From the NCBI GenBank assembly GCA_025057415.1, contig JANWXI010000007.1, forward strand, positions 1 to 36,557: a stretch of 36,557 nucleotides of DNA, written 5' to 3'. The stretch's first letter is position 1, and the number at the start of each line of letters is the position of its first letter. The notes beneath the pieces were generated by a model. That model was given only the letters and a program-made list of their open reading frames with translations, was not told the DNA's origin and did not search any database. The position numbers and the translations under genes are program-made. The stretch comes from Chitinophagales bacterium. Its GTDB lineage: Bacteria; Bacteroidota; Bacteroidia; Chitinophagales; LD1. Shown piece by piece: positions 610 to 30,777 of this stretch.

Positions 610-762
610 GGGTGAGGGATGCGTAGGGCGCGAGCGGAGCGAAGCGGCCGCGCCCGCACATTTGAAAAATCTAAAAAATTTTCGGGCGCGGCGGGAGCGA
701 AAGCGTACCCCGGAGCAAGCCCGACCCCGCTGCCTTGCATTGCCTGGCAGCGGGGGCACCCC
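610..762 (+). repeat. GC-rich structured intergenic repeat, copy A
   Basis: GGGTGAGGGATGCG...hairpin 1 (gccgcgcccg 647-656 / cgggcgcggc 683-692)...AGCCCGACCCCGCTGC...hairpin 2 (ccccgctgcc 725-734 / ggcagcgggg 746-755)...GGGGGCACCCC. Same block order as the reverse complement of 30643-30777. Confidence 0.8.
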
Positions 763-1202
763 ATAACCTTTAAATAAGCGTTTAGCTACCTTAATAAATT
801 TACATTTCATAAATATCCCGAATAATGGGAATGTATCTCATGAAATGGGATGGTGCGGTACTCTGATGTTTTTAGCAGTTTTGTTTGCCGGGTTAATCTA
901 CTTGAACACTATGTATTGGGTGGTTGGTATACATGCGGAGTTTTGTGTGCCTGTTTAAATTGCAAAATACGATTAGTATCTGTTTGAATTATCACATTTT
1001 GTGAGTTAAAAATAAACCTGATACGCCAAACAATTTTCTTACACACCTTGTTCAAGGAACATAATTTATCCACATGGCTGCTTTTTCTGTCTTAAACGGA
1101 AACCGTGAATGTGGTGTAAACCATTGGGGCGCAAGGCTTATATCTTATTTTTTGTATTTTTTCCAAATACCAAACGCTCGTTCAAAAATTATCTTACTTT
1201 TT

Positions 1203-1233
1203 TTGGATAATTACCTATCGGCACTCATATTTG
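1203..1233 (+). promoter_or_regulatory. Candidate Bacteroidota-type promoter for the act/cox operon
   Basis: TTG (1203-1205), 20-nt spacer, CATATTTG (1226-1233), one mismatch to TAnnTTTG. About 40 nt upstream of the preferred actA start at 1272. Confidence 0.35.
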
Positions 1234-1271
1234 CGCCGCATTTTTACAATTCCATGACAATTTGTTTCAGG

Positions 1272-2549
1272 ATGACTTCACCTCACCGCCCGTGTATCCG
1301 TACCCTTTTCGCACTTAAGTTTATACCCGTTATATTTTTCATGTTGAGCGCCTTTAACGCTACTGCTGAGATTGACAAAGCTAAGTGGAACGAGGGTAAG
1401 GCGCTTTTTAAAAGCAACTGTGCTGCTTGTCATAATCCAAAAGTTGATGGTACCGGTCCAGCTTTAATGGGAGTAACAGCCCGATGGGAGGCAGCGGGTG
1501 AATTCAAGGGAAAAACAGGAAAACAATGGCTCTACGTTTGGATAAAAAACTGGAATGATCCCGTCAATGCCGGTTACAAATACGCTATGGACATGGCAAA
1601 CAGCCGCCCCTCTGCCATGAACGTATTTGCTACATTGAAAGATGAGGATATTGACAAGATGCTCCTTTATGTTGAAAACCCTGACTTTGGAGCAGCTCCT
1701 GATGTGACAAAAATCTCAACCCCAGCCGGGGGTGAGCCACCCAAAGAGAGTGGATCTAACACCACTTTACTGATTTTTGCTCTTTTTCTGGTAGTTCTAG
1801 TAGCCATACTTATCGGCATCACCAATAAACTGGACCGTCTTGTTGCCGAGAAAAACGGAGAGGTGGTTCAGGAAAGTAAAATACCCTTCTGGAAAAGACC
1901 CAAGTGGATTACGGCTTTTGTACTGATAGGCATTGTATTAGTTGGCTACGCAGCAGTGGACTGGGGTACGCACCTCGGGCGCCAGCAAGGATATCAACCC
2001 ACACAACCTATCAAATTTTCTCATGCCCTACATGCCGGTACACATAAAATTGAGTGCCAATATTGCCACGGAAGTGCCTATAAGGGTAAACATGCCAATA
2101 TTCCTTCGGTGAATACATGCATGAATTGTCATAAAAACATTCAGAAAGGGCCCAAATATGGTACTGAGGAAATAGCTAAAATTTACGAAGCCGTGGGATG
2201 GGATTCAAAATCACAAACCTACTCCAAGACGCCAAAACCCATTGAGTGGGTGCGTATTCATAACCTACCCGATCATGTGTATTTCAATCATGCCCAACAC
2301 GTAAATGTCGGTAAAGTTCAATGCCAAACCTGCCACGGACCCATCGAAACCATGGAGGAGGTTTACCAATACTCACCGCTTTCGATGGGATGGTGTATCA
2401 ACTGCCACCGTCAAACCGAAGTGCAGTTCGCCTCCAATAACTATTACTCTGCCTATGAAAAAATCCACGAGGATCTGAAAAACAAAAAATTGAGCAAAGT
2501 AACCGTAGAGACAATAGGCGGTACAGAGTGCCAGCGTTGTCATTATTAA
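1272..2549 (+). CDS. actA: Alternative complex III subunit ActA, multiheme c-type cytochrome with an extra N-terminal monoheme domain
   Basis: Six CXXCH motifs (CAACH, CQYCH, CMNCH, CQTCH, CINCH, CQRCH). Signal peptide, then class-I-like cytochrome c domain, TM segment and pentaheme region. Start moved from 1074 to 1272 (or 1254) because the signal peptide begins there. Confidence 0.88.
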   Translation: MTSPHRPCIRTLFALKFIPVIFFMLSAFNATAEIDKAKWNEGKALFKSNCAACHNPKVDGTGPALMGVTARWEAAGEFKGKTGKQWLYVWIKNWNDPVNAGYKYAMDMANSRPSAMNVFATLKDEDIDKMLLYVENPDFGAAPDVTKISTPAGGEPPKESGSNTTLLIFALFLVVLVAILIGITNKLDRLVAEKNGEVVQESKIPFWKRPKWITAFVLIGIVLVGYAAVDWGTHLGRQQGYQPTQPIKFSHALHAGTHKIECQYCHGSAYKGKHANIPSVNTCMNCHKNIQKGPKYGTEEIAKIYEAVGWDSKSQTYSKTPKPIEWVRIHNLPDHVYFNHAQHVNVGKVQCQTCHGPIETMEEVYQYSPLSMGWCINCHRQTEVQFASNNYYSAYEKIHEDLKNKKLSKVTVETIGGTECQRCHY

Positions 2550-2579
2550 TACTTATACAAACCACCTCAATCCACATAA

Positions 2580-5500
2580 ATGAAAGCATACTGGAAAGGA
2601 ATAGAAGAGAAAGAGCAACTGGAAGGATTTACAGCTTCGGCTGATAAGGAATTCAGCGAGGAATTACCCGCCCTTCATTCTATAACCGAGCCGATTATTA
2701 ACGGCAAATCCAGCCGCAAGGATTTCCTGAAAATGCTTGGTTACAGCACCACAGCGGCTGTAATTGCGGCAAGTTGCGAAATGCCCGTGCGCAAGAGCAT
2801 CCCATATGTGTGGCGTCCGGAAGAAATTACACCGGGTATTCCCAATTTCTACGCAACTACGATGTGGCAGGGTGGAGAATATAATGCAGTTTTAGTTAAA
2901 ACCCGCGAAGGCCGCCCAATCAAAATAGAAGGCAAGAAAGATGCCCGCATCAGTAAAGGAGGAACCAGCGCCCGCGCACAGGCCAGTGTGTTGAGCTTAT
3001 ACGACGGGGCGCGTTACAAAAATCCTTTACGAAACTCAGGAAGTAGTAAACCTGAAAATATTACCTGGGAAAAAGCCGACAAAGAAATAGGGGATAAGCT
3101 AAGCTCTATCTCAGGCAAAATCGTCCTCTTTTCATCTACCATCATTTCGCCTTCTCTCTTATCACTCATCAATATATATGGTAGTAAGCTGGGTGGGAAA
3201 TTTGAGCATTTGATATACGATGCTATTTCTTACTCCGGCATCTTAGATGCCAACCAGAAAAGTTTTGGAAAGCGCTCTATCCCCTCATATAATTTTGGAG
3301 CAGCGAAAGTTATCGTAGGTATTGGTGCCGATTTTTTAGGTACATGGCTCTCTCCGGTAGAATTCAGCGCTGACTACGCCACTACCCGCAAGGTTAAGGG
3401 CTCTAAGTCAACAATGAGCCGCCACATACAAATAGAAAGTGTACCCACTATTACCGGCTTTAAGGCCGATACGCGTATTGTGGTAAAGCCATCCGATGAA
3501 CTAAATGCGGTTGTTGACTTGTACAACGTAATTGTTGCCGGCGGCTCAGCCAAAAATCCTAAAATAGCTAAGGTGGCTGAGGAATTATCTGCTGCCGCTG
3601 GTAACTCGCTCGTAGTTTGTGGCTCTAATGATGTGAACGTACAACTGCTGGTTAATGCCATTAATGCCAAGCTGGGTAACTACGGAAATACTATTTCCTG
3701 GAGTCGTACTATCAACACCAAGCAGGGCTCGGACGAGTCAATTACCAAACTGGTAAACGGTATAAACGATGGTAGCATAGGTGCGGTTCTCATCTACGAT
3801 GCTAACCCTGTTTACAACGCTCCTATACCGGGTGTTGCTGATGCGCTCAAGAAAGTATTTACCGTATCTTTTGCTAATCGGGTTGATGAAACCTCGATGA
3901 TATGCAACTATGTGCTCCCCGACAATCACTGGCTCGAAAGCTGGGGCGATGCGGAGGCAAAATCAGGCATTCTCAACACCATTCAACCCACCATTTCAAA
4001 ATTATTTGATACCCGGCCGTTTGCCGAAACACTCATGAAATGGAGTGGTATAAACGGTACGTATTACGATTATTTGCAAAACTACTGGCAAACCAATTAT
4101 TACAGTAAGCAAAATACTTATAACAGTTTCTGGGCATTTTGGGATAATGTGGTGCACGATGGAGAATTCGAATTTCCCGCAAGCGGTACTGCCAGTTACA
4201 ATCCTGCTGGTGAAACAGATGCTCTTGGAGCTGTTAGTGCCTATGCCTCATCGCTTGGCGAGTTGCAGGTAAAATTTTATGAAACAGTTGCCATTGGTGA
4301 TGGATACTGGGCTGACAACCCTTTTTTACAGGAGTTGCCTGACCCCGTTTCAAAGGTAACCTGGGACAACTACATCATCGTAAGCCCTAAATTTTACAAC
4401 GACAACGGCTATAATATTGACCCACATTTTAAAGAAAAGCGCCATGCTGTGGCTAAGCTAACCGTTAATGGTAAAACTGTAGAATTACCGGTAGTAGCTG
4501 TGCCCGGTACTGCCGAAAATACGCTGGGTGTTGCTCTTGGCTATGGACGCTCTGCCACCGAATACAATGAACTGAAAGTAGGTAAGAATGTATATCCCAT
4601 GCTTTCGTTCACAGGTAAAAACTATACCAACATCGCGAAAGCATCGCTAATAAAAACTGAAGATACCGCACAGCTTGCCATAACGCAAACACACTTCAAC
4701 ATTACACTTAAAGATCTGGGGGGTATTAAAACGCGTAAAATTGTAAAAGAAACCACCCTCCCAGAGTACATCGAAAGTGAGTTACAAGGGAAAAAATTCT
4801 GTGCCGGTAACGAGGACCGAGAGCACATTATGGAAGAGCTCGTAACTCTTTATTACGAACACGATAAGCCCGGCCACCATTGGACAATGGTAATTGACCT
4901 AAACTCATGCACAGGGTGTGGTGCTTGTGTAGTGGCTTGCAACATTGAGAACAACATACCGGTTGTGGGTAAAGACCAGGTTATTCGCGCCCGCGAAATG
5001 CACTGGCTGAGGATCGATCGCTATTTTACCGGAGAAATGGAAAACCCCGATGTAGTGTTGCAACCGATGTTATGTCAACACTGCGACAACGCTCCATGTG
5101 AAAACGTATGTCCTGTTGCCGCCACCAATCACAGCAGTGAGGGTCTTAATCAAATGGCGTACAACCGCTGTATCGGTACCCGTTATTGTGCCAATAACTG
5201 CCCTTACAAAGTGCGCAGGTTCAACTGGTACGATTATCAGGCAGCCGATGCATTTGATGCCCGCTGGCATACCTCTAACGATTGGCCCCTCAGCGAAGCA
5301 ACCTTAGCGCAACATGAGCCGTTGGCGCGCATGGTTCTCAACCCCGATGTTACGGTTCGCTCCCGTGGTGTGATGGAAAAATGTTCTTTCTGTGTTCAAC
5401 GCCTTCAGGTTGCGAAACTTGAAGCGAAAAAAGAAGGGCGCAGATTAGCCGATGGAGAGGCAACCACGGCCTGCCAAACCGCATGCGCTACCGGCTGTAT

Positions 5501-5681
5501 CACCTTTGGCGACCGCAACGATAAATCCAGCAAGGTGTACGAAGCATTTAATGACTCCAGAGCTTTTGGAGTAGTTGAGGAAATACACACCATGCCGAAT
5601 GTGCTGTACCTTACGCAAGTACGTAACCGTTCCGAGAAAAAGAAATATGAAAGGCTCGACTATTTCGGGCAGCAAGTTTGA
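2580..5681 (+). CDS. actB: Alternative complex III iron-sulfur subunit ActB (MopB-like domain plus ferredoxin-like domain)
   Basis: Tat-like N-terminus (SSRKDFLKMLGYSTTAAVIAASC), MopB-like region and four Cys clusters in the C-terminal part (CTGCGACVVAC, CQHCDNAPCENVCP, CIGTRYCANNCPYKVRRFN, CSFCVQR...CQTACATGC). Confidence 0.93.
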   Translation: MKAYWKGIEEKEQLEGFTASADKEFSEELPALHSITEPIINGKSSRKDFLKMLGYSTTAAVIAASCEMPVRKSIPYVWRPEEITPGIPNFYATTMWQGGEYNAVLVKTREGRPIKIEGKKDARISKGGTSARAQASVLSLYDGARYKNPLRNSGSSKPENITWEKADKEIGDKLSSISGKIVLFSSTIISPSLLSLINIYGSKLGGKFEHLIYDAISYSGILDANQKSFGKRSIPSYNFGAAKVIVGIGADFLGTWLSPVEFSADYATTRKVKGSKSTMSRHIQIESVPTITGFKADTRIVVKPSDELNAVVDLYNVIVAGGSAKNPKIAKVAEELSAAAGNSLVVCGSNDVNVQLLVNAINAKLGNYGNTISWSRTINTKQGSDESITKLVNGINDGSIGAVLIYDANPVYNAPIPGVADALKKVFTVSFANRVDETSMICNYVLPDNHWLESWGDAEAKSGILNTIQPTISKLFDTRPFAETLMKWSGINGTYYDYLQNYWQTNYYSKQNTYNSFWAFWDNVVHDGEFEFPASGTASYNPAGETDALGAVSAYASSLGELQVKFYETVAIGDGYWADNPFLQELPDPVSKVTWDNYIIVSPKFYNDNGYNIDPHFKEKRHAVAKLTVNGKTVELPVVAVPGTAENTLGVALGYGRSATEYNELKVGKNVYPMLSFTGKNYTNIAKASLIKTEDTAQLAITQTHFNITLKDLGGIKTRKIVKETTLPEYIESELQGKKFCAGNEDREHIMEELVTLYYEHDKPGHHWTMVIDLNSCTGCGACVVACNIENNIPVVGKDQVIRAREMHWLRIDRYFTGEMENPDVVLQPMLCQHCDNAPCENVCPVAATNHSSEGLNQMAYNRCIGTRYCANNCPYKVRRFNWYDYQAADAFDARWHTSNDWPLSEATLAQHEPLARMVLNPDVTVRSRGVMEKCSFCVQRLQVAKLEAKKEGRRLADGEATTACQTACATGCITFGDRNDKSSKVYEAFNDSRAFGVVEEIHTMPNVLYLTQVRNRSEKKKYERLDYFGQQV

Positions 5682-5774
5682 TAATCAGAGCGGCAGATAA
5701 CAGAAGTTATTTGCCACTACCATTGAAACAGCGTTCTTTTTAATAATATAAACTAAAAAACTACAAAACATAAA

Positions 5775-7208
5775 ATGCACGCATACGAATCTGAATTTCG
5801 GGAGCCGCTAATCAACGGGATGGATAAAAATTACACCAAGATCACCGATGATCTGGTGGCGCCAACAGAGCGCAATTCGCCCACCTGGTGGATTGCCACG
5901 TTAATTACCGGAGCCGGCACTTTGTACTTTGTCTTCTGTTTGTTCTGGACGGTGTGGTTTGGTATCGGTACCTGGGGGCTTAACAAAACCATCGGCTGGG
6001 CTTGGGACATTACCAACTTTGTGTGGTGGATCGGTATCGGACACGCCGGAACCCTCATCTCTGCCATTTTGTTGCTCTTTCGCCAGCGGTATCGCACCGG
6101 TATTAACCGCGCTGCAGAGGCCATGACCATCTTTGCAGTTATCTGTGCCGGTATGTTCCCGGTATTTCACATGGGTCGAGTGTGGGATGCCCCGTTCATT
6201 TTTCCGCTACCCAACACTCGCGGACCGCTCTGGGTAAACTTCAACTCTCCTCTTTTATGGGATGTATTTGCGATTTCTACTTACTTCTCAGTTTCTGTGC
6301 TTTTCTGGTACTCTGGGCTTATGCCTGATTTTGCAACCATCCGTGACCGTTCAAAAGGAAAACTTCGCAGATGGATTTACAATATTCTGGCATTTGGCTG
6401 GCAAGGTACTGCCAAACAATGGCAACGTTTTGAGTCGCTCGCTCTGGTACTTGCCGGCTTATCAACCCCGCTGGTACTTTCTGTACACACTATCGTATCG
6501 TTTGACTTCGCTACATCGGTTATACCCGGATGGCACACTACTATCTTCCCTCCATATTTTGTGGCTGGAGCCATCTTCTCGGGATTTGCCATGGTAGAGA
6601 CCCTCATGCTGATTACCCGAAAAGTATTTAAGTTAGAAGATTACATCACTATTAACCATATTGAGTCGATGAACAAAATTATTGTGCTTACGGGCTCAAT
6701 TGTGGGTATTGCTTACATAACCGAAATGATTATTGCCTGGTACTCGGGTTACCTGTATGAGCAATTTGCTTTTTATAACCGTGCTCTCGGCAAGTATTTT
6801 TGGGCATATGCGTGGATGATGGGCTGCAATGTTATATCACCTCAGTTATATTGGTTTAAGAGCATGCGCAGGAACGTTTACGTAACTTTCATACTTTCCA
6901 TTTTCGTGAATATCGGTATGTGGTTTGAGCGCTTTGTGATTATCGTTACTTCGCTTGCCGATGATTTTCTGGTGAGTAGTTGGGCGTATTTTTCACCAAC
7001 TTGGGTGGATTGGGGAATTTATGTGGGGTCTCTTTCTTTGTTCCTGTTCTTGTTTTTGTTGTTTGCCCGCTTCTTCCCCGTAATTGCGATTGCCGAAGTG
7101 AAGTCCATCTTCCGTACATCGTCTGAAGTGGCCAAAGCCGAGCGTGCCAAAGCGGAAGGCGCTACACACGGCGGCTTTATTTTACGGGGGGCATTTAATA
7201 AAGATTAA
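5775..7208 (+). CDS. actC: Alternative complex III membrane subunit ActC (NrfD/PsrC family)
   Basis: Multi-TM NrfD-like protein in act gene order (GWAWDITNFVWWIGIGHAGTLISAILLLFRQ). Confidence 0.93.
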   Translation: MHAYESEFREPLINGMDKNYTKITDDLVAPTERNSPTWWIATLITGAGTLYFVFCLFWTVWFGIGTWGLNKTIGWAWDITNFVWWIGIGHAGTLISAILLLFRQRYRTGINRAAEAMTIFAVICAGMFPVFHMGRVWDAPFIFPLPNTRGPLWVNFNSPLLWDVFAISTYFSVSVLFWYSGLMPDFATIRDRSKGKLRRWIYNILAFGWQGTAKQWQRFESLALVLAGLSTPLVLSVHTIVSFDFATSVIPGWHTTIFPPYFVAGAIFSGFAMVETLMLITRKVFKLEDYITINHIESMNKIIVLTGSIVGIAYITEMIIAWYSGYLYEQFAFYNRALGKYFWAYAWMMGCNVISPQLYWFKSMRRNVYVTFILSIFVNIGMWFERFVIIVTSLADDFLVSSWAYFSPTWVDWGIYVGSLSLFLFLFLLFARFFPVIAIAEVKSIFRTSSEVAKAERAKAEGATHGGFILRGAFNKD

Positions 7209-7233
7209 TTTGAATATAAAATAAACATCATAT

Positions 7234-7788
7234 ATGGCTGAAACGACACTTCCGAATAAATTTGTGGTGGGCTTGTGGGACCACGAAGAGGTGTATCTGC
7301 ATGCCGTGGAACACATCCGCCATAAAGGCATTGAAATATACGACAGCTTAACGCCTTTCCCGGTTCACGGGTTAGAAGATGCACTCGGGCTCAAAGAAAC
7401 ACGCCTGCACACGGCGGGTTTCATGTTTGGCGCCACAGGTGCAACGTTGGCTTTGTCTTTCATGACCTGGGTGATGACCACTAACTACCCCATCAATTTT
7501 GGAGGTAAACCTTATTGGCCGGTTCCTTCATTTATACCTATAACTTTTGAAATGACGGTATTGTTTGCTGCCTGGGGCATGACCCTTACGTATTTAGTGC
7601 GCAACAAATTATGGCCGGGCCGTGTACCGCGTATTTATGATAAACGCACGACTGACGACAGATTTGCCCTTGTATTCAACGCTGAAAACTTGAATGAAGC
7701 GCAAATTGCAGAGCTGAAGGAAGTATGCCGGAAGGAAGGAGCCGTAGAAGTTAAAGACAGAGTTTTTACCCCTGATGAACAACTTTAA
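7234..7788 (+). CDS. actD: Alternative complex III subunit ActD (DUF3341)
   Basis: Two TM segments, PINFGGKPYWPVPSFIPITFEMTVLFAA motif, position in act order. Confidence 0.92.
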   Translation: MAETTLPNKFVVGLWDHEEVYLHAVEHIRHKGIEIYDSLTPFPVHGLEDALGLKETRLHTAGFMFGATGATLALSFMTWVMTTNYPINFGGKPYWPVPSFIPITFEMTVLFAAWGMTLTYLVRNKLWPGRVPRIYDKRTTDDRFALVFNAENLNEAQIAELKEVCRKEGAVEVKDRVFTPDEQL

Positions 7789-7811
7789 AAACTGAAACAT
7801 ACGTTATACCA

Positions 7812-8504
7812 ATGAAAAAACAATTCATACAGATTTTTCCTATCGCGTTGATAGCCGCTGCATGGCTGGTATCATGCAGTCGGGCGGGGAAAGATGAGAC
7901 AGGCGCCATTTACATGCCTGACATGACATACAGCAATGCTTATGAAACATATGCAGAGAGTAACATACCAACACCTGAAGGTTATGCAATGAGTGCCCGT
8001 AAACCTGTGCCGGGTACTATTCCCTACGGATATATCCCTAACGACCCCAAAATCAAGACCAACTCGGCATACCTGCTTAGTTATGTGGCAAAAAATCATT
8101 TCACCTTTTCGCCCGATAAATGGCAACAGGAGTATGATTATGCTGCAGCCAACATGCAAAATCCATTGGAGCCAACTGAGCAAAATTTAGCCGAAGGAAA
8201 ACGTCTTTATGAAATTAACTGCAAAGTATGCCATGGAGAAAAAGGCGAGGGTAACGGTCAGATTGTAGAGCTTCCCGGCGGCGGGGATGGCCCCTATACG
8301 GCAAGACCACCCGCATACTCTGCCCGCCTGAAAGAAATCAAGGATGGTCACATGTTTTACAGCATCAGCTACGGTAAAGGCATGATGGGCGGGTACGGTT
8401 TTCAACTGACGGTGAACGAGCGCTGGCAACTTATTCATTACATTAAAAAATTAGCAGGCATTGAGCCGGTAGCTGCCAATGTTACAAATGTTACAGTAAA
8501 ATAA
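7812..8504 (+). CDS. actE: Alternative complex III monoheme cytochrome c lipoprotein ActE
   Basis: Lipobox-like AAWLVSCS, one CKVCH heme motif, MMGGYG region, position in act order. Confidence 0.9.
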   Translation: MKKQFIQIFPIALIAAAWLVSCSRAGKDETGAIYMPDMTYSNAYETYAESNIPTPEGYAMSARKPVPGTIPYGYIPNDPKIKTNSAYLLSYVAKNHFTFSPDKWQQEYDYAAANMQNPLEPTEQNLAEGKRLYEINCKVCHGEKGEGNGQIVELPGGGDGPYTARPPAYSARLKEIKDGHMFYSISYGKGMMGGYGFQLTVNERWQLIHYIKKLAGIEPVAANVTNVTVK

Positions 8505-8536
8505 TATTTTCTCTCACCAAATTTATACCGCAATAA

Positions 8537-9985
8537 ATGGGATCTCATCAAACAACCACAGTAACTACAAACGAAAAATTTGAGTTTACAGCTGGTATCC
8601 GCAAAGCACTCCACATAATGATGGGTGTTGGAATTGTCGGGCTACTTCTTGTTTACATTTTTAATCCCGAAAACGGGCATGCACGCTTTTGGAGTAATAT
8701 ACTGTTGAATACATATTATTTTACCGGCATATCGCTGTTCGGGCTGTTTATTGTAGCTGCTGCACAGTTAGCTTATGGCGGTTGGCATACGCTCATTAAA
8801 CGCGTTCTCATTTCTATGGGGGCGTTTTCTATGATAGGCGGCTTTTTGCTGCTATTTACACTTATTACTGGCTTACTCGGTTGGCACAACTTATACGACC
8901 ACGTAAAACATATACTGCACGATCATCACAATGAAAAATACACCAACAAGCATATCTTCTTTAACCCTCCGTTTTGGGTGGCTCGTGTTTTGATATATGC
9001 AATCGCTTGGGCGGCATTGTCGTATGCATTTGATAAGTTTTTTGGCGAGAAGAATCAAATCGACCCGAAAGTTTACAAACAGTCAAAATTGCTATCCGCT
9101 TTGTTTATTGTGGTATTTGCGGTCACGGAGTCATTTGTTAGTTGGGATATGGTGATGAGCTTAGACCCCCACTGGTACTCCACGTTGTTTGGCTGGTACA
9201 ATTTTGCCAGTTACGGGTGTGCCGGATGGGCTATGTCTATCCTGTTGGTTATTTTCTTAAAGTCAAGGGGATACCTGCAAGCAGTAAACGAAAATCATAT
9301 ACACGATTTGGGGAAGTTCCTGTTTGGTTTCTCTATATTTTGGACTTACCTGTGGTTTTCGCAGTTCATGCTGCAGTGGTACGGTAACATACCCGAAGAC
9401 ACGAATTTCTGGGTTAAACGCTTTAATACCGGTTATTTTAAATTCACCATATTCTTATCGCTGATCATCAACTTTTTGTTTCCGCTGTTGTTTTTGATTA
9501 AGCGCAGTGCAAAGCGCAATTTTAAAATGATAGGTTTTGGCGCTGCTCTGTTATTTTTTGGTCATTATATTGACTTTTTCAACTATACGGCATTTGAGCC
9601 GGTAGTGCGCGAAGCCACTCATGACAGTCATCACGGAGGCGGACACTCGTCCGTTTCGCAGCGGTTCACTCTTTTAGCCGAAGTTCACGGTGAACACAAC
9701 GCTCCCGCAGAAAAAGCTCCAACCTCTGATGTTCCTTCGCATGCAGATGTTCATCTGCAAAACACTGCGGCTCCTGCTCATGCACCAAAACATGAGTCAC
9801 ATGGCTCCCATAGTCATGCTACAGCACATTTCGCTACAATCGGCCTGGGCGAATTGATGATTTTTGCGGGCTTTTTGGGCTTATTCTTGTATTTCTGCTT
9901 CAGCCGGCTGAGCAAGCGAAACCTGATTGTGGAAAACGACCCCTATCTGGAAGAGTGTAAACGTTTAACTGTTACATGGGCATAA
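8537..9985 (+). CDS. actF: Alternative complex III membrane subunit ActF, with a His-rich insertion
   Basis: Multi-TM protein similar to ActC, in act order. His-rich low-complexity stretch (HDSHHGGGHSS...HAPKHESHGSHSHATAHF) before the last TM. Confidence 0.9.
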   Translation: MGSHQTTTVTTNEKFEFTAGIRKALHIMMGVGIVGLLLVYIFNPENGHARFWSNILLNTYYFTGISLFGLFIVAAAQLAYGGWHTLIKRVLISMGAFSMIGGFLLLFTLITGLLGWHNLYDHVKHILHDHHNEKYTNKHIFFNPPFWVARVLIYAIAWAALSYAFDKFFGEKNQIDPKVYKQSKLLSALFIVVFAVTESFVSWDMVMSLDPHWYSTLFGWYNFASYGCAGWAMSILLVIFLKSRGYLQAVNENHIHDLGKFLFGFSIFWTYLWFSQFMLQWYGNIPEDTNFWVKRFNTGYFKFTIFLSLIINFLFPLLFLIKRSAKRNFKMIGFGAALLFFGHYIDFFNYTAFEPVVREATHDSHHGGGHSSVSQRFTLLAEVHGEHNAPAEKAPTSDVPSHADVHLQNTAAPAHAPKHESHGSHSHATAHFATIGLGELMIFAGFLGLFLYFCFSRLSKRNLIVENDPYLEECKRLTVTWA

Positions 9986-29277: not shown

Positions 29278-29327
29278 AACTTTCCGGCGCTTTGCCCATT
29301 GCCTTAAACCTCGTTACTTCGCCACGC

Positions 29328-30554
29328 ATGAACAAACGCAAAATCTTCAACGACCCCGTACATGGCTTCATCACCATCCCCCATGAACTAATCTTTGATG
29401 TAATAGAACACCCGTACTTTCAGCGCCTGCGCAGAATAAAACAACTTGGACTAACCGATTATGTGTATCCGGGCGCCATACATACCCGTTTTCATCATGC
29501 ACTGGGCGCTTTTCACCTGATGCGCAAGGCCATCTCTATACTAAAAATCAAAGGCGTAAAAATTAGTCCCGATGAAGAGCTTGCCGCATGCATCGCCATC
29601 TTGCTGCACGACATCGGCCACGGCCCGTTTAGCCATGCCCTAGAGCACACCCTCTTACAGGGTGTACGCCACGAGGATATTTCGCGCGTTTACATCCATC
29701 GCCTAAACGAACATTTTAAAGGCAAACTCCGTCTTGCTATCGAAATATTTGAAGGCCGCTACCGTAAAAAATTCCTGCATCAGCTCGTCTCGTCACAACT
29801 GGACGTGGACCGGCTCGACTACCTCACGCGCGACTCCTTCTTTACAGGTGTAAACGAGGGCTCCATCGCTACCGAGCGCATCATTGAGATGATGAACGTT
29901 CACAATGACGAAATCGTGATTGACCAAAAAGGCATTTACAGTATTGAGAGTTTTATCGTTTCGCGCCGGTTAATGTACTGGCAGGTCTATTTGCACAAAA
30001 CTGTGCTGTGTGTAGAAATGATGCTCGTAAAGGCATTAGAGCGCGCTAAAGAACTGATGCGCCGTGGCGAAAAATTAGGCGGCTCTCCTGCCTTACTGTA
30101 TTTTTTACAAAACAAAGTACGCCTCAAAGATTTCACCAAAAATCCGGCGCTGCTCGAATACCACGCCCAACTGGATGATGTGGATGTTATCTCCGGTCTT
30201 AAACATTGGCTCAATGCACCCGACAAAATACTGCGTATGCTATGTCAGGCAGTGCTCCACCGCAAGCTTTTCAAAATTGAAATCAGCAACCGCGCTTTCA
30301 GTTACGCAAAAATCCGCAAACTCAACCAAGCGGCCATGAAAAAATATCAAATCACCGAAGCCGAAAGCGCCTACCTTGTATTCTCTGATGCCACCGTAAA
30401 CCACGCCTACAACCCCAACGAAAACCGCATCAACATCCTGATGAACAACGGAGAGGTGATAGACATAGCCCTGGCGAGCGACCAACTCAACATATCGGTG
30501 CTGAGCGTACCTGTAACCAAGTACTACGTTTTTTACCCCAAACGATTGGTGTAA
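29328..30554 (+). CDS. HD-domain phosphohydrolase (dNTPase/SAMHD1-like)
   Basis: KIFNDPVHGFITIPHELIFDVIEHPYFQRLRRIKQLG...THRFHH-like IHTRFHHALGAFHL, LLHDIGHGPFSHALEH. Confidence 0.88.
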   Translation: MNKRKIFNDPVHGFITIPHELIFDVIEHPYFQRLRRIKQLGLTDYVYPGAIHTRFHHALGAFHLMRKAISILKIKGVKISPDEELAACIAILLHDIGHGPFSHALEHTLLQGVRHEDISRVYIHRLNEHFKGKLRLAIEIFEGRYRKKFLHQLVSSQLDVDRLDYLTRDSFFTGVNEGSIATERIIEMMNVHNDEIVIDQKGIYSIESFIVSRRLMYWQVYLHKTVLCVEMMLVKALERAKELMRRGEKLGGSPALLYFLQNKVRLKDFTKNPALLEYHAQLDDVDVISGLKHWLNAPDKILRMLCQAVLHRKLFKIEISNRAFSYAKIRKLNQAAMKKYQITEAESAYLVFSDATVNHAYNPNENRINILMNNGEVIDIALASDQLNISVLSVPVTKYYVFYPKRLV

Positions 30555-30642: not shown

Positions 30643-30777
30643 GGGGGTGCCCCCGCTGTGGCGCGCTCATTCCTCTCGCGCCGCAGCGGGGTCGGGCTGA
30701 CCCGCTCCAAGTCCTCGCCGCGCCCGCGCTTTGGGCGCGGGCGCGGGCTGCGGGCTTTCCGCTCGCATCCCTCACCC
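30643..30777 (-). repeat. GC-rich structured intergenic repeat, copy B (inverted relative to copy A)
   Basis: Reverse complement reads GGGTGAGGGATGCGAGCGGAAAGCCCGC...GCGCGGCGAGGACTTGGAGCGGGTCAGCCCGACCCCGCTGC...CAGCGGGGGCACCCCC. Stems: 30651-30665/30677-30691 (15 bp with one T/G wobble) and 30718-30729/30735-30746 (12 bp perfect). Confidence 0.8.

Follow-up and report, generated by a model that had tools for sequence, protein, structure and literature searches.

The window, by which we mean the whole 36,557-nucleotide stretch of a Chitinophagales genome analysed here (contig JANWXI010000007.1, forward strand), contains two copies of a GC-rich structured element, A and B, with GC contents of 67% and 78% against 44% for the window. 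Downstream of copy A, at 1074-9985, lies a run of genes encoding a multihaem cytochrome c and molybdopterin/Fe-S proteins that resembles an alternative complex III operon; a T9SS sorting domain is also encoded in the window and, together with the distribution of the element, supports placing the host in the Bacteroidota. Copy B lies about 90 bp beyond the stop codon of the open reading frame at 29292-30554. The parts of the two copies are as follows.

610..762, plus strand: copy A, whole element, variant I, 153 nt (covariance model R1, 59.9 bits, E 6e-11)
610..614, plus strand: copy A, 5' strand of stem P1, GGGTG; partner at 757-761; P1 covaries among relatives
616..618, plus strand: copy A, 5' strand of stem P2, GGG; partner CCC at 720-722; helix 2 of the relatives' alignment
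647..692, plus strand: copy A, hairpin 1 of arm 1, with an AT-rich loop; 647-656 pairs with 683-692
709..724, plus strand: copy A, conserved 3' side of arm 1 and GA linker, ending in ...AAGCCCGA; from comparison of copies
725..755, plus strand: copy A, hairpin P5; 725-734 pairs with 746-755
757..761, plus strand: copy A, 3' strand of P1, CACCC; from P1 covariation among relatives
30644..30777, minus strand: copy B, whole element, variant II, 134 nt (R1, 104.8 bits; copy B is among the sequences on which R1 was trained)
30773..30777, minus strand: copy B, 5' strand of P1, GGGTG on the minus strand; from the sequence
30645..30649, minus strand: copy B, 3' strand of P1, CACCC on the minus strand; from the sequence

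A first-pass annotation, made from the letters of the window, had described A and B as copies of a dispersed repeat with two covarying hairpins. Its coordinates for copy A are exact and those for copy B are borne out, position 30643 being countable as the last C. The blocks that it reported as common to both copies, GGGTGAGGGATGCG, AGCCCGACCCCGCTGC and GGGGGCACCCC, match exactly, and it had measured the hairpins correctly: the stem of hairpin 1 has 10 bp in copy A and 12 bp in copy B, and that of hairpin 2 (P5) has 10 bp in copy A against 15 bp, with a single G-T pair, in copy B. It overlooked the P1 stem (GGGTG/CACCC), which unites both of its "boundary blocks" in one fold, as well as the existence of three internal variants and the link to the Rfam family Flavo-1.

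We determined how often the element occurs in the host genome (3.22 Mb) using its 15-base core, AGCCCGACCCCGCTG. Allowing at most one mismatch, the core was found at 130 + 98 = 228 places, while the reversed control pattern was found at none in the same genome. At about 145 bp each, the copies would make up approximately 1% of the genome, as estimated from the core count and the copy lengths. Sixty full-length copies were read for anatomy. All copies retain, with few changes, the terminal sequences GGGTGAGGGATGCG and GGGG(G)CACCCC together with the block AGCCCGACCCCGCTG, and the interior comes in three forms: variant I, that of copy A, is about 150-185 nt long (AGGGCGCGAGCGCAGCGAAGCGGCCGCGCCC...GGGCGCGGCGGGAGCG.CAGCGTACCCCGTAGC); variant II, that of copy B, is about 117-134 nt long (GAGCGGAAAGCCCGC...GAGGACTTGGAGCGGGTC); and variant III is about 126-138 nt long and has a short arm. 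The copies are mainly intergenic. The base before the element is nearly always a pyrimidine, and the 3' flank is A/T-rich. Contigs often start or stop inside a copy, since repeats break short-read assembly. The extreme GC content in an AT-rich setting and the numerous contigs that end in a copy could suggest that the likeness among copies is only an effect of base composition or of assembly. This explanation is already refuted for practical purposes: the core occurs at 228 places against none for the control, unpaired motifs are conserved exactly, the element is also present in named genome assemblies and in genomes that consist of one contig, and contig ends are what a repeat is expected to produce. 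At two copies (L072 and L079) the left flanks contain N runs and slippage-like G/C stretches, which are probably assembly damage at the repeat. Some copies terminate longer, diverged composite repeats that contain other GC-rich palindromes, for example GCGGGTCGCCCGCC...GGCGGGCGACCCGC; such left flanks (L006, L008, L071, L075 and L083) reach at most about 450 bp beyond the 5' end of the element, and two kinds recur.

The fold is a three-way junction in which P1 closes two arms, arm 1 and hairpin P5. Arm 1 is long and imperfect, with P2 (GGG/CCC), purine-rich internal loops and a variable hairpin; P5 is CCCCGCTG/CAGCGGGG with a variable tip. Hairpin 1 is kept in variant I copies, some of which carry G-C to C-G double changes, and the P5 stem is kept among copies while its tip varies. 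When copies were folded singly, many gave the three-way junction and others paired the GC-rich arm in alternative ways. In an alignment of 55 own-genome rows, four of which are weak antisense matches, 97.9% of cells pair, and 60 cells are changed on both sides, compared with 10.1 in shuffles; when the partner strand was slid, pairing fell to 47-56%. Among relatives, 35 distinct sequences pair in 95.1% of cells and show double-sided changes in 31 of 33 pairs, and none of 500 shuffles matched any of these measures. There, GGGTG/CACCC of P1 is replaced by GCGTG/CACGC and other forms, and AAG/CTT of P3 by AAT/ATT. The alignments were fitted to the model and the effect sizes are therefore upper estimates. 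These results indicate that the structure of the element is under selection, as had been argued from copies A and B, both in its own genome and in other Bacteroidota. Of the outcomes that the first-pass annotation had listed as counting against its reading (few copies, no covariation, mere GC bias), none occurred.

Strong covariation in the genome and in relatives is what a structured non-coding RNA would display, whether a multi-copy RNA family or a set of RNA-level regulatory elements. Two further observations point the same way: the modelled strand has 19 G-U against 7 A-C pairs, a slight excess in an alignment fitted to that very strand, and in 30 of 34 relatives the fold of the element strand is more stable than that of the complementary strand. 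The same covariation, however, is expected of structured single-stranded DNA, and hundreds of copies in a single genome, in mixed orientation to genes, speak against an RNA. We consider an RNA identity unlikely, and we favour a REP-like mobile DNA.

The position of the copies relative to genes bears on what they may do. Genes were called by a simple ORF rule, and 47 copies had a neighbour on each side. The two neighbours ran opposite to the element in 18 cases, diverged in 14, converged in 8 and ran in the direction of the element in 7. REPs of E. coli can act as a transcription barrier or as a 3' mRNA stabiliser, and the present element could likewise have spread as DNA and have been retained for such a host use near gene ends. 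Indeed, when the gene on the 3' side is directed towards the element, the distance to its stop codon is mostly no more than about 90 bp; copy B, with the open reading frame at 29292-30554, is a case of this. Only 26 of the 47 copies are so arranged, however, and the 14 copies between divergent genes do not fit; retention for host use appears still less likely than an RNA. The flanks of the element show no target-site duplication beyond that found in shuffles. This weighs against the element being a MITE of a DDE-transposase insertion sequence, as do its inverted ends, GGGTG/CACCC, which are only 5 bp long, and its conserved interior, which is unlike MITE filler. A MITE would be short, dispersed and bounded by inverted ends, as the element is, but we regard this origin as improbable. 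The first-pass annotation had proposed "an ncRNA or a REP/MITE-like mobile element"; the REP-like part of that proposal is the one we retain, while a MITE in the strict sense does not agree with the short ends and the lack of target duplication.

Seventeen other species of the genus lack the exact core almost entirely, so the high-copy variant is specific to this lineage and its spread recent. Relatives elsewhere in the Bacteroidota, which the first-pass annotation had mentioned in general terms, were recovered both by covariance models and by a pattern scan. R1, built from six variant II copies of the host genome and three relatives, detected the element in 88 of the 299 genomes from the order, with a ceiling of just 11 scored candidates in each, and R3, a model built from relatives, found it in 53 of 297 genomes of a phylum sample, within and beyond the class of the window. 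The pattern scan of named genomes gave at least 120 matches. Among the 80 listed, nearly all are from Bacteroidota, including Flavobacterium, Algibacter, Lutibacter, Pedobacter, Mucilaginibacter, Ohtaekwangia, Chryseolinea, Rufibacter, Niabella, Tannerellaceae and a Bacteroides fragilis plasmid; two of those listed are MAGs labelled Spirochaetales. Relatives usually begin GCGTGAGGGAT and finish GGGCACGCC, a typical one being GCGTGAGGGATAGNAGCGGAAAGCCC...GAGGACTTGNAGCGGATAGCCCGACCC...GGGCACGCC(C/A), of at least 83 nt. A sequence-only model made from seven own-genome copies alone recovered 19 of 27 relative loci, with a best E of 8e-10. The homology is thus independent of the training of R1 on relatives, and we conclude from these profile matches that the phylum-wide relatives are homologous to the window element. 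One genome (G056, L048-L053) has a much larger relative, CAAGGGATAGGAGTGG...GGATAGCCCGACCCCGCAG, with long additional arms and the core at 14 or more places.

Some of these relatives belong to a family already in Rfam. Four of them (L105, L108, L037 and L123) scored 62.4, 60.4, 54.6 and 53.7 bits against Flavo-1 (RF01705), whose gathering cut-off is 42 bits, and eight more scored 26-36 bits. The same relatives are matched by the own-copy models and by RF01705, which have the core motif and the arm-1 pairing in common. RF01705 itself finds nothing in the window and nothing in the host genome, and copies A and B gave no match to it under E limits of 1 and of 10. Other Rfam families gave chance matches only. 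The element and Flavo-1 share the core GGGAT-G-AGCGGAAA ... TTG-AGCG ... AGCCCGA, arm 1, a confinement to Bacteroidota and a dispersal in many copies; in two genomes RF01705 matches at least 67 (G019) and at least 84 (G030) places, 87 candidates having been scored in each. They differ in that the Rfam model covers arm 1 only, without the P1 and P5 stems seen here, and in that the window variant is GC-rich, has a rebuilt arm 1 and is missed by RF01705. The canonical relatives are Flavo-1, and the window element is a diverged Flavo-1 relative that lies below the Rfam membership score. What is new is the GC-rich, high-copy variant; the poorly understood Flavo-1 family was known already. Rfam classes Flavo-1 as an sRNA ("Gene; sRNA"), whereas we treat the element as DNA. 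The RNA explanation gains from the description of Flavo-1 as a likely, non-cis-regulatory RNA of Bacteroidetes by Weinberg et al. 2010 (PMC2864571), and loses from the transcriptome of F. psychrophilum, in which Flavo-1 matches show no consistent transcription (PMC9723704).

If the element is mobile DNA, the enzyme that moves it is probably a Y1 transposase. RAYTs of subclass 2.6, from Bacteroidetes, are reported to have atypical flanking structures that lack GT[AG]G and that have further copies elsewhere in the genome (PMC6006769). Of the 299 genomes from the order, 148 encode proteins that match a 2.6-like profile (VIM.NHVH ... YIHNNP). In element-bearing genomes, 9 of 55 2.6-like loci had elements within 2 kb, 12 elements in total, and most loci were unflanked; 14 more 2.6-like loci, mostly in genomes without R1 matches, had none, and neither did any of 36 class 1.2 Y1 control loci in element-bearing genomes. 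Two class 1.2 loci that were not picked for nearness (L140 and L304) do have elements, so that the contrast in frequency with 2.6 is modest. We had also considered that the element might regularly flank class 1.2 TnpA genes; the counts of 1/30, 0/16 among unselected loci and the 0/36 just given ruled this out. Conversely, among 149 loci picked for the element, named and order-level, one had a Y1 gene within 2.5 kb. An association between element and Y1 genes at the genome level (odds ratio about 4) is confounded by shared ancestry and was set aside. In a RAYT tree the element-flanked genes fall in five places, and no single RAYT clade thus owns the element.

Where element and gene do lie together, their orientation follows a rule. 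All 12 elements near 2.6-like genes point their 5' end at the gene, upstream copies lying 158-871 bp away on the opposite strand and downstream copies 153-1469 bp away on the same strand. The same orientation is seen in all five cases that involve class 1.2 genes (L154, L155, L157, L158 and L304), four of which were noticed while scanning lists and chosen for nearness, not for orientation. The overall count is 17 of 17 in ten lineages; copies within G019 and within G104/G114 are non-independent, the matches L372 and L381 are weak, and counting each lineage once gives p ~0.002 by our own arithmetic.

We think it somewhat probable, on the combined evidence, that the element is a non-autonomous, REP-like structured DNA repeat, about 120-185 bp in length, which a Y1 transposase moves in trans in the form of a folded single strand. 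The folded strand would be exposed as single-stranded DNA, for example on the lagging-strand template, this intermediate being, like the enzyme, a probable one. A RAYT-type Y1/HUH transposase of subclass 2.6, perhaps also of 1.2, would recognise the folded strand and copy or move the element in trans. Only copies that still fold would be moved, and we propose that pairing is for this reason kept despite drift of the stem sequences. A burst specific to the lineage would then have given rise to the more than 200 copies of the host genome. Like REP/REPIN elements, the element is high in copy number, mainly intergenic and imperfectly palindromic, and in some relatives it flanks RAYT 2.6 genes (RAYT group 5 of Bacteroidetes, PMC6006769) as inverted copies. 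It is REP-like in its working, but lacks the classical size and foot: it measures 80-185 nt against 21-65 nt for REPs, begins GGGTG or GCGTG without a GT[AG]G 5' foot, and forms a three-way junction. By general description it also resembles ERIC and BOX elements, which are about 100-150 bp long, imperfectly palindromic and intergenic, with fixed ends and variable middles; no relation in sequence or fold is claimed.

A broader reading, which we put at a little under even chances, makes Flavo-1 the core arm of a DNA repeat that folds as a three-way junction, occurs throughout the phylum and is spread in single-stranded form by Y1 transposases of subclass 2.6 and class 1.2; the host would carry a rebuilt, runaway variant of this repeat. 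An unexplained and widely annotated Rfam "sRNA" would thereby gain full boundaries (P1 and P5) and an alternative identity as mobile DNA, and the Bacteroidota Y1 transposases whose structures were called atypical (2.6) or absent (class 1.2) would gain a proposed substrate. Surveys that count Flavo-1 matches as RNA genes would need correction.

In the host genome no RAYT gene is flanked by the element. Its one intact RAYT-like gene (G000:C122, L424:9262-9953; 204 aa, NHIH ... YIHQNP) lies between other palindromes, GTCTGACC, which occur at only three places in the genome. With an E limit of 1, the only sign of PF01797 in the host is a broken remnant of an IS200-type TnpA with several stops (G000:C116:15789-16104, L087). 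The enzyme that served the element in this host may have been lost, may have diverged past the reach of the search or may lie in the unassembled part of the genome. In another genome (G069, L157:3501-4121), a GC-rich tandem repeat with the in-frame reading GYKHATPSGSGV or GDTNMRPLRGRV separates the element from a class 1.2 Y1 transposase gene.
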